Origin: Acidobacteriota bacterium
GTDB taxonomy: Bacteria; Acidobacteriota; Thermoanaerobaculia; UBA5066
NCBI GenBank assembly: GCA_029781975.1
Contig: JAKOVQ010000014.1
Location: forward strand, 1-64,000
DNA length: 64,000 nucleotides
Direction: 5' to 3'
Below the pieces are notes generated by a model, which had not been told where the DNA came from, ran no database searches, and saw nothing but the letters and a program-made list of their open reading frames with translations. The translations under genes were made by a program, and so were the position numbers. This document shows positions 52,868-61,213 of the stretch, piece by piece. Position 1 is the stretch's first letter; every line of letters starts with the position of its first letter.

Positions 52868-55254
52868 CCGACCTCTCCGTCCTCGCCCGGGACCACCGCG
52901 AGGCCCTGGTCCTCCTCCTCGACCGCTGGACCGCAGGGCGCCCCGTCGCGCTCCTGAGGTCCGACCTCCTCAGGGGCTTCGAGGAGGTGCGCGCGTCGTA
53001 CGACAGGGTCGATCTCGCCGAGACGCCCGTCGGCGAGTTCGTGTCGCTGCTGCAGGAGGTGGTCTTCCGCTACCCCTGGGCCGTCTTCTCCCTCCGCGAC
53101 GGGCCAGGCGCCTACCGGTACGTGAGGATCCACCGCGACCGGCTCGAGCCCGAAGAGATCGACACCGCCGAGTCGCTCCGGTTCAAGGAGAGGCTGATCG
53201 CCCCGTCGATGGAGGAGGACGACGGCTTCGAGATCGACTTCGGCCCCTTCTCGCGCGGCTTCCCGCGCCTCACCGAGGCCCGCTCGATCGGCCAGGGGCT
53301 CAGCTTCCTCAACCGCCACCTCGCGAGCCAGATGTTCAACAACCCGCGCGAGGGGGCCGACCGGCTCCACGACTTCCTGGCCCTCCACGTCCTCGACGGG
53401 CAGTCCCTCCTCCTCCGCTCGAGGTTCCGCGACACGGCCTCCCTCCGGGAGGCGCTCCGCCGGGCGACGGCGCTCCTCGAGAGGAGGGACTCCGAGGCCC
53501 CGTGGGCCGGGGTCGCCGAGGAGCTGGCCGGCCTCGGCGTCCACCCCGGCTGGGGCGACACGGCGGGGCGCGCCGCCGAGACGATGTCGCTCCTGATGGA
53601 CCTCCTCGAGGCGCCCTCACCCGAGGGGCTCGAGGGGTTCCTCGCGCGCGTGCCGATGATCTCGCGCGTCGTCATCCTCTCGCCCCACGGCTTCTTCGGC
53701 CAGGCCGACGTCCTGGGCCTCCCCGACACCGGCGGCCAGGTGGTCTACATCCTCGACCAGGTGCGCGCCCTGGAGAAGGAGATGCGGAAAAGGCTCGCGG
53801 AGCAGGGGGTGGACGTCGAGCCGAAGATCGTCATCGTCACCCGGCTCATCCCCGAAGCTCAGGGGACGACCTGCGACCAGCGGCTGGAGAAGGTCGAGGG
53901 GTGCCACGGCGCGGTCATCCTCCGGGTGCCGTTCCGTTTCCGGAGCGGCGAGATCGTGAGGCACTGGATCTCGCGGTTCGAGGTCTGGCCGTTCCTCGAG
54001 CGCTTCTCCCGCGACGTCGAGCGCGAGGCGCTGGCCGAGGTCGGAGGGCGCCCCGACCTGATCATCGGGAACTACTCCGACGGGAACCTCGTCGCCTCGC
54101 TCCTCGGCCAGAGGCTCGGGGTGACGCACGCCACGATCGCCCACGCCCTCGAGAAGACCAAGTACCTCTTCTCGGCCCTCTACTGGCGCGACAACGAGTC
54201 CCGCTACCACTTCTCCTGCCAGTACACGGCCGACCTCCTGGCGATGAACAGCGCCGACTTCATCATCACGAGCACCTACCAGGAGATCGCCGGGACGAAG
54301 ACCCAGATGGGGCAGTACGAGAGCTACCAGGCGTTCACGATGCCGGAGCTCTACCGCGTCGTGAACGGGATCGACGTCTTCGACCCGCGCTTCAACATCG
54401 TCTCGCCGGGGGCCGACGAGACCGTCTACTTCCCCTACACCGATTCGGGCCGGCGGCTCGGCGCCTACGTCCCCAGGATCGAGGAGCTCCTCTTCGGCGA
54501 ACCCGGGCCGGACGAGCGGGGAAAGCTCGCGGAGCCCGACAAGCCGATCGTCTTCACGATGGCGCGGCTCGACCGGATCAAGAACCTCACGGGGCTCGTC
54601 GACTGCTACGGCGCCTCGCCGCGCCTGCGCAAGCTCGCCAACCTCGTCGTCGTCGGGGGGAAGATCGACCCCTCCCAGTGCGGCGACCACGAGGAAGCCG
54701 AGCAGGCCCGCTGGCTCCACGAGCTCTTCGCGCGCCACGGCCTCGACGGCCAGGTCCGCTGGGTGGGGCGGCGGCTCGACCGGCACCTGGCGGGCGAGCT
54801 CTACCGCGTCGTCGCCGACCGCCGCGGGGTCTTCGTCCAGCCGGCCCTTTTCGAGGCCTTCGGCCTGACCGTGGTGGAGGCGATGGCGTCCGGCCTCCCG
54901 ACGTTCGCGACGTGCCACGGGGGCCCGGCCGAGATCATCGAGGACGGCCGGTCGGGCTTCCACGTCGACCCGACCGACGGGGCGGCCATGGCCGAGCGGA
55001 TCGCCGGGTTCCTCGAGAGGTGTGACGTGGATCTCCAACTTTGGCTCCGACTGTCCGCAGCGGCCGTCGCCAGGGTGGAAGCCCGGTACACTTGGCGCCG
55101 GTATGCCGACCGGATCATGACGTTCTCCCGCATCTACGGCTTCTGGAAGTTCGTCAGCGGCCTAGAACGGCAGGAGACCCAGAGGTACCTGCAGGCGCTC
55201 TATCGCCTGCAGCTCCGTCCGTTGGCCGCTGCGGTCGGGGGAGGCGACGGCTGA
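52861..55254 (+). CDS. Sucrose synthase
   Basis: This 797-aa enzyme interconverts sucrose + NDP and NDP-glucose + fructose. It shows an N-terminal SUS region, then the GT-B core: [32 protein letters not shown] (residues ~280-310), [54 protein letters not shown] and the E-x7-E motif [20 protein letters not shown]. Bacterial sucrose synthases of this kind are known from several proteobacteria and cyanobacteria. The start ATG at 52861 lies in the end of the SPS gene; the longer reading is a shadow. Preference for ADP or UDP is not decidable here. Confidence 0.94.
55237..55244 (+). promoter_or_regulatory. Strong Shine-Dalgarno supporting a CTG start
   Basis: GGGGGAGG with a 6-nt spacer precedes the CTG at 55251, which overlaps the sucrose synthase stop (CTGA). 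No ATG, GTG or TTG is placed so well for the ClC gene. Confidence 0.55.
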
Positions 55255-59267: not shown

Positions 59268-59399
59268 GCTCCTCCCTCCCTTGCGTGCTGCTTCCCGCCT
59301 CGCCCCGGGGCGACCCGGGCCCGGACGGCGCCGCTAAACTACACCCTCCGGAGGCTTTTCGGGGCGACGGACCCCGCGGATCCGCCGGGAGGAGGCCCC

Positions 59400-59852
59400 G
59401 TGACCCGACCCCCGACGCTCCCCCGAGCCAGGCCCCCCGCGCCCCCGCTCCGCCCGGGCGGGCGGCTCGTCTCCCTCGCGGCCGCCCTCGGCCTGCTCCT
59501 GGCCGCGACGGGCTGCGAGGACCGCCTGGACCCCGTCGGGCCGGCCCAGACCTGGACCGCGGTCTACTCCCTGGAGCTGACGGGAAGCGGGACGGTCGTG
59601 AGCATCGCCTACGACGACGGCGCCGGGAACGAGCTGGCCGCCACGGCCGCCGGCCCCTCCTGGACGAGGACGGTGCTCCTCCGGCCCGGCAGCAGCGTGG
59701 CCGCCCGCGCGCAGGTGGGCCTCCTCGACGGGAGCGTCGTCCTGAAGCTGGCGGCGCGCGACGGCTCGGGCCACACCGTCGACCGGACACAGAGCTGCGC
59801 CGGGTCGCAGAAGAGCTGCTCGCTCGAGATCCCCCGGGAGACCCTCCCCTGA
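59400..59852 (+). CDS. Small lipoprotein with MmpS-like strand pattern
   Basis: This 150-aa protein has a lipoprotein signal (SLAAALGLLLAATGC). Its mature part is beta-rich: YSLELTGSGTVVSIAYDDGAGN, SWTRTVLLRPGSSVAARAQVG, VVLKLAARDGSG and a C-terminal CAGSQKSCSLEI with two cysteines. The pattern recalls MmpS-type accessory proteins, but I do not claim homology. The GTG start has GGGAGGAGG upstream. Its TGA overlaps the next gene's proposed CTG start (CTGA). Confidence 0.68.
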   Translation: MTRPPTLPRARPPAPPLRPGGRLVSLAAALGLLLAATGCEDRLDPVGPAQTWTAVYSLELTGSGTVVSIAYDDGAGNELAATAAGPSWTRTVLLRPGSSVAARAQVGLLDGSVVLKLAARDGSGHTVDRTQSCAGSQKSCSLEIPRETLP

Positions 59853-61213
59853 CGGCCGCCGCGGGCCACGAGCCGGTCGACGTCCTGATCGAGGGCGGGA
59901 CCGTCGTCCCGATGGACGACGCCTTCACGGTCGTCCGGGACGGCGCGGTCGCCGTCCGGGGGACCGACGTGGCCGCCGTCGGCCCGTCGGCCGAGCTGAG
60001 GGCGCGCTACGCGCCCGCCGAGACGATCGACGCGCGCGGGCAGGTCGTCCTCCCCGGGCTCGTGAACGGCCACACCCACGCCGCCATGACGCTCTTCCGG
60101 GGGATGGCGGACGACCTCGCCCTCGAGAGCTGGCTCGCCGACCACATCTGGCCCGCGGAGGCCGCCTGGATCGACGAGGACACGGTCGCCCGCGGCACGG
60201 CCCTGGCGTGCGTGGAGATGCTGAAGGGGGGCGTCACCACCGCCCTCGACATGTACTGGCTCCCCGAGGCGTGCGGCGCGGCGGCGCGGGCGGCGGGCTT
60301 TCGCCTCGTCCTCGGCGGCGTCCTCGTCGATGGCGCCGGCGCGGACGGCCTCACCCCCGAGGCGCGGTTCGCCGCCAGCCGCGCCCTCCTCGAGAGCCAC
60401 CGCGACGACCCCCTCCTCGGCGTCTCGATCCAGCCCCACTCCACCTACGCGGCGTCCCCCGACCTCCTCGTCGAGGCCAAGGCCCTCGCCGACTCGTACG
60501 GGGTCCGGTACGCCCTCCACGCCGCCGAGACGCGCGCCGAGACCGAGCTCGTGAAGGGGCGGTACGGCTCCACGCCGGTCCGGCACCTCCACGCGCTCGG
60601 CCTCCTCGGCCCCGCCACGACCCTCGCGCACGGGGTCCACTTCGACGACGAGGAGATCGCCCTCCTCGCCGCGACCGGGACGGCGGTCGTCCACTGCCTC
60701 GAGTCCGAGCTGAAGCTCGCCTCGGGGATCCCCCGGATGCCCGAGCTCCTCGCCGCCGGGGTCCCCGTGGGCCTGGGGACCGACGGCACGGCCAGCAACA
60801 ACGACCTCGACATGTGGGCCGAGCTCCGCCTCGCCGCCCTCCTCTTCAAGGCGCGCGGGAACGACCCGACCCTCGTCCCCGCGCGGCTCGCCCTGCGGCT
60901 CGCCACGAGGGGCGGCGCCCGCGCCCTCGGCCTCGACCACCTGGTCGGCTCGCTCGAGCCGGGCAAGCGGGCCGACGTCGTCCTCGTCGACTTCGACCGC
61001 CCGCACCTGACGCCCGTCTACGACGTCTTCTCCCACCTCGCCTACGCCGTGAACAAGGCGGACGTGAGGACCGTCCTGGTCAACGGCCGCGTCGTCGTGA
61101 GGGACCACCGCGTCACCACGCTCGACGAGCGCGAGACGATGGAGCGGGTCCGCGAGGTGGCCGCCCGGATCGCGGCGGACCGGGCGGCCCGTCCGTCCCG
61201 CTCCCCCGGCTGA
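59849..61213 (+). CDS. Amidohydrolase, MTA/SAH deaminase-type (MtaD-like)
   Basis: This ~454-aa amidohydrolase deaminates adenosine-like substrates in its family (5'-methylthioadenosine or S-adenosylhomocysteine). The metal motifs are complete: VVLPGLVNGHTHAAMTLFRGMADDL (HxH), SIQPHSTYAAS, ALHAAETRAET and GLGTDGTASNNDLDMW. It ends with the usual metal-free strand part, DVVLVDFDRPHLTPVYDV. The reading before DVLIEGGTVVPM contains no ATG, GTG or TTG but has a CTG at 59849 in a CTGA overlap with the lipoprotein stop. Substrate specificity needs assay; the start is provisional. Confidence 0.85.
   Translation: MTAAAGHEPVDVLIEGGTVVPMDDAFTVVRDGAVAVRGTDVAAVGPSAELRARYAPAETIDARGQVVLPGLVNGHTHAAMTLFRGMADDLALESWLADHIWPAEAAWIDEDTVARGTALACVEMLKGGVTTALDMYWLPEACGAAARAAGFRLVLGGVLVDGAGADGLTPEARFAASRALLESHRDDPLLGVSIQPHSTYAASPDLLVEAKALADSYGVRYALHAAETRAETELVKGRYGSTPVRHLHALGLLGPATTLAHGVHFDDEEIALLAATGTAVVHCLESELKLASGIPRMPELLAAGVPVGLGTDGTASNNDLDMWAELRLAALLFKARGNDPTLVPARLALRLATRGGARALGLDHLVGSLEPGKRADVVLVDFDRPHLTPVYDVFSHLAYAVNKADVRTVLVNGRVVVRDHRVTTLDERETMERVREVAARIAADRAARPSRSPG

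Follow-up and report, generated by a model that had tools for sequence, protein, structure and literature searches.

The TRZ/ATZ-type amidohydrolase gene described here is very probably translated by termination-reinitiation from a CUG codon that overlaps the stop codon of an upstream lipoprotein gene, as an instance of what is a regular feature in its bacterial family. Both the position of this start and the conservation of such starts across the family are established by comparison of related sequences. The source genome (G000) is a 5.37-Mb draft, in 54 contigs, of an uncultured Acidobacteriota bacterium, and the window, that is, the whole 64,000-nucleotide stretch that was analysed (C38:1-64000), has a G+C content of 73.5%. 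Features of the window, together with the remaining clear CTG starts found in G000, are collected in Table 1.

The lipoprotein-amidohydrolase junction

The coding segment of the lipoprotein gene was placed at 59465-59852 by the gene finder, and searches with Pfam and NCBIfam profiles returned no match for its product. The amidohydrolase matches Amidohydro_1 with 237 bits, well past the curated cut-off of 25, and scores 459 against a cut-off of 540 for the best NCBIfam equivalog, NF006549; on these profiles it is classed as a member of the TRZ/ATZ superfamily that misses the NF006549 equivalog level. A preliminary description of the window had claimed that the amidohydrolase frame has no upstream ATG, GTG or TTG and begins at a CTG sharing its bases with the lipoprotein stop. 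Reading of the frame confirmed this, as none of the three codons occurs between a GTG at 59285, which lies 188 codons upstream of the CTG and ahead of the lipoprotein start, and the ATG at 59912. The GGGAG said to precede the CTG is indeed present, at 59836-59840, with a spacer of 8 nt and not the claimed 10 nt.

That the CUG is the likely start of the gene, as had also been proposed, is borne out by homology. For the solved relatives 4dyk, 4gbd and 4dzh from the PDB, alignment with the CTG-started protein begins at its residue 5-8 and covers the strand VDVLIEGGTVVPM, and the methionine encoded by ATG 59912 forms the end of this conserved first strand. The best orthologue, L010 of genome G001, is 71% identical, and its N-terminus, MSFPVSPRPIDLLVQGGTVV, aligns without gaps to (L)TAAAGHEPVDVLIEGGTVV, placing the G001 ATG at the very residue encoded by CTG 59849. 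Because no canonical start would keep the conserved N-terminus, the alignments support CTG 59849 as the genuine start; the predicted N-terminus is fMet-TAAAGHEPVDVLIEGG, with formylmethionine presumed to be the first residue. The upstream neighbour in G001 is a different gene on the opposite strand, so the stop-start overlap of the amidohydrolase gene is not conserved, and CTG at this particular start was found in G000 only.

Table 1. Features of the window around the junction, and the seven clear CTGA starts (numbered 1 to 7) of the G000 sample
Feature	Location	Strand	Remarks
ClC chloride-channel gene (1)	C38:55251..57071	+	CTGA 55251-55254; Voltage_CLC match
Small lipoprotein, upstream gene	C38:59400..59852	+	GTG start; LAATGC lipobox (from sequence); 150 codons; TGA 59850-59852
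GGGAG, Shine-Dalgarno-like	C38:59836..59840	+	8-nt spacer to CTG 59849; read in sequence
CTGA	C38:59849..59852	+	CTG 59849-59851 overlaps lipoprotein stop TGA 59850-59852
TRZ/ATZ-type amidohydrolase (aminohydrolase) (2)	C38:59849..61213	+	454 aa; CTG start; stop TGA 61211-61213
ATG, first canonical start downstream	C38:59912..59914	+	Residue 22 of amidohydrolase frame; rejected as start
O-antigen-ligase-like (3)	C38:187885	-	
LolC/E-like (4)	C2:129396		After lysS
GluQRS-like (5)	C24:75908	-	
HutI-like (6)	C24:275886		
RlpA-like lipoprotein (7)	C3:8666	-	

CTGA overlaps in the genome and among relatives

A six-frame Markov/Viterbi gene finder, which uses stop codons but is blind to start codons, was applied to 1.66 Mb of G000, and adjacent same-strand genes were found in the NTGA relation as GTGA (141 pairs), ATGA (58), TTGA (7) and CTGA (63). 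For most of the CTGA pairs an alternative start is usable within a short distance; a canonical start is missing from -120 to +45 in 8 of them and from -60 to +30 in 13. Reading of each case left about seven clear CTG starts beside 206 ATGA, GTGA or TTGA overlaps, and about 3% of the -4 overlap starts of G000 are CUG. Candidates set aside in this reading include C32:8121, where a GTG at +57 with GAGGAGGGG explains the gene, C38:209187, C2:326124 and C3:30107, each with a canonical start shortly downstream, and C2:73720 and C38:143961, which have a GTG at -48 and -9, respectively.

Counting CTGA overlaps against ATGA and GTGA had been suggested as a check of the CUG proposal, and the sampled genome does contain CTGA overlaps that offer the sole start; an excess of CTGA as such was not shown. 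The raw number is unusable as evidence because C precedes TGA in most cases anyway (554 of the 991 TGA-ending genes in the G000 sample). Moreover, 1 apparent orphan turned up among 18 NTAG and NTAA overlaps, in which no start is possible, so that the CTGA count is not decisive without homology. What is unusual is the combination of a CTGA lacking any other start with homology that requires a start there. A Shine-Dalgarno match of at least 4 precedes 46% of the CTGA overlaps without another near start, as against 65-77% of GTGA and ATGA overlaps. The curated CTG starts make up 7/213 overlap starts and 0/984 starts of other genes, and the associated Fisher p of 5e-6 is indicative only, since the seven cases were picked on individual reading and long intergenic DNA makes it harder to exclude a start. 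Elsewhere than in CTGA, the 1.66 Mb revealed no convincing CTG start, and the single other CTG candidate, C3:22772, also lies in a CTGA, ending a 14-codon ATG...TGA ORF. The gene concerned encodes an EAL-domain protein (L124:2730-4406; G000:C3:22730-24406) whose sole plausible start is this CTG; the short ORF that the CTGA closes (MRVPASRPARGALA) has an AGGAG upstream, and may be either a coupled leader peptide or the product of a one-base frameshift.

Taken together, the genome sample and the conservation between genomes make a stronger case than the amidohydrolase locus by itself. The other of the two CTGA cases that the preliminary description had counted in the window was upheld: the ClC gene has no canonical start from -120 to +45, has GGGGGAGG about 6 nt upstream of the CTGA, and retains the CTGA and the same upstream gene in G000 and in G004, G009 and G011 (three genomes, genus g5), with ATGA at this junction in G006 and two order-level relatives. 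For the LolC/E-like gene after lysS, nine family genomes belonging to six genera have CTG as codon 1, four family genomes, all of genus g3, have TTG, and order-level relatives have ATG or GTG. Codons 6-24 of this gene keep their amino acids as the bases vary synonymously, and in G000 and G003 at least the first 38 residues contain no ATG, GTG or TTG, leaving no canonical start available; the N-terminus predicted from the CUG would be fMet-TxxxLLARRYLLASRRDAQ. Seven genomes have CTGA and four have TTGA at the HutI-like junction, and the O-antigen-ligase-like junction is CTGA in 6/6 genomes in which it is readable, with a CAGGAGG-type sequence upstream. The GluQRS-like gene has CTGA in G000 only, and GTGA or ATGA in relatives. 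The HutI-like gene of G001 (L248) has neither CTGA nor a canonical start near its conserved N-terminus, possibly through a frameshift or another non-canonical start.

Across these loci the start is replaced only by other start codons, by ATG in the G001 amidohydrolase gene and by alternation among CTG, TTG and ATG elsewhere. Such NTG alternation among orthologues is the behaviour of a start codon. The same CTGA in independent assemblies of different genera makes a shared base error most unlikely, and comparison of these sequences rules out base error as an explanation across the whole family, pointing to the arrangement as a heritable family feature. The broader suggestion that stop-start coupling tolerates CUG in this organism is strengthened by four further loci at which CTGA starts are shared among genera.

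Two high-GC genomes served as controls. In 1 Mb of the unrelated high-GC Embleya, 0/38 sole-start overlaps are CTGA, an underpowered comparison (Fisher p 0.13-0.35) that would fit a feature confined to the family as well as a wider one. The high-GC control G049 yielded two CTGA cases in 400 kb, one of them explained otherwise, in a sample that is too small. In this class-level relative, an ABC-permease-like N-terminus follows a CTGA that has no canonical start close to it (L281, G049:C1:347623). No CTGA starts were found in the small samples of 200 kb each from G001 and G003.

Alternative readings of the junction

Initiation could instead take place at ATG 59912, the first canonical start in the amidohydrolase frame, yielding a protein that is 21 residues shorter and lacks the first strand. 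The preliminary description had itself set this methionine against its proposal, and a start there proves to cut into the region aligned with the solved relatives; for these, as for the G001 protein, alignment to the CTG-started form sets in at residue 5-8. With the loss of the first conserved strand the ATG is implausible as a start, and family genes of the same arrangement that run for at least 38 residues without a canonical start likewise argue against this reading, which we consider very improbable. An error at 59849, where the true base would be G, A or T and the CTG would stem from assembly, consensus or a passing MAG variant, is suggested by the restriction of CTG at this gene to a single genome and by the 54-contig draft state of the assembly. 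Yet separately assembled genomes from several genera show the same CTGA at homologous junctions, so that the lineage has CTG starts for which no error is needed, and such a mistake at this one base is very improbable.

The lipoprotein and amidohydrolase frames stand in a -1 relation where they overlap, and it is therefore conceivable that no new initiation occurs and that a -1 frameshift at the stop fuses the two proteins. At the lysS junction, however, the same event would yield a fusion of a soluble synthetase with a membrane protein, and in G002 and G008 the TTG of lolC is no longer coupled to lysS at all. A frameshift would also sit poorly with a first codon that alternates only among NTG (CTG and TTG, with ATG and GTG in outgroups), and an unsystematic reading noticed no slippery site; frameshifting is, in our judgement, very improbable.

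Proposed reinitiation and known stop-start pairs

In the favoured reading, initiation at the CUG, a ribosome ending the lipoprotein would halt at the UGA with the CUG one base back and the GGGAG just upstream, and the same ribosome, or its small subunit, would restart at the CUG with ordinary fMet-tRNA, two of three bases being paired. In -4 overlaps of this Acidobacteriota family the start may be ATG, GTG, TTG or CTG, and on the simplest reading local delivery of the terminating ribosome would make a poor codon good enough. At some operon junctions (three loci) the starts observed are confined to the weak pyrimidine codons CTG and TTG. Weak starts may be kept to limit the second gene, with low expression as the presumed reason; tolerance without selection explains these loci equally well, C being the commonest base before TGA. 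The fuller proposal, that the family routinely uses CUG, only in stop-start overlaps, because the reinitiating ribosome escapes the codon checking that keeps CUG out of ordinary initiation, and that CUG and UUG are kept at junctions to restrain the second gene, has in our estimation an even chance of being right.

The geometry is that of known -4 overlaps associated with termination-reinitiation (PMC6728339, PMC10666635), which likewise place the Shine-Dalgarno sequence inside the upstream gene and occur in tight operon pairs. Those overlaps are defined as ATGA or GTGA (PMC10666635) or spoken of as ATGA (PMC6728339), and the texts of both papers contain no mention of CTG or CUG, whereas the overlap conserved in the Acidobacteriota family is CTGA. 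The amidohydrolase start shares bases with the upstream stop and has a Shine-Dalgarno sequence before it, and it is neither ATG nor GTG; by analogy, the junction would be a variant of the -4 stop-start pair that works like one. According to PMC11497404, CUG is uncommon among the non-AUG starts of bacteria, and Belinky et al. (2017, PMC5622118) found it to arise at a frequency of 3.2e-5 among AUG starts and 2e-4 among GUG starts. A CUG initiator in a bacterial gene is common to that study and ours, but in G000 the codon accounts for about 3% of -4 overlap starts, several of them kept between genera; the published rates rest on annotated starts and may have missed CUG. The implication of conserved CTGA starts would be that the choice of codon is less strictly constrained in reinitiation than in free initiation, and gene callers limited to ATG, GTG and TTG would truncate, shift or lose the genes concerned, among them the LolC/E-like protein and the tRNA-synthetase paralogue.

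What permits the CUG is probably coupling and not an altered initiator, judging from the initiator tRNA and infC. The IF3 frame of infC (L284, G000:C27, upstream of 37471) has no canonical start near its N-terminus and carries an ATT behind AAGGAGGT, so the gene appears to begin with AUU. In other bacteria infC starts with AUU and is autoregulated, and the AUU start here speaks for an intact start-codon check by IF3. Experiments with a reconstituted system showed that this factor tolerates nothing but Watson-Crick pairing at the first position of the codon (PMC10158994), a demand under which CUG needs a special circumstance. An initiator tRNA variant, M1, places fMet-tRNA on CUG as proposed for the amidohydrolase, but does so through a changed anticodon stem, C30-G40 (PMC11497404), whereas the G000 initiator (L204) is canonical, with C1-A72 and the usual GGG/CCC anticodon stem. 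An altered or CAG-anticodon initiator was rejected for this reason and because no match to a CAG version of the initiator anticodon loop fell on any tRNA gene that the Rfam scan called; two short tRNA genes, C27:281994 and C6:87771, were unreadable. Among the tRNA genes of G000, ARAGORN also calls a tRNA-SeC (tca) at G000:C32:131767-131865, which would imply selenoprotein synthesis.
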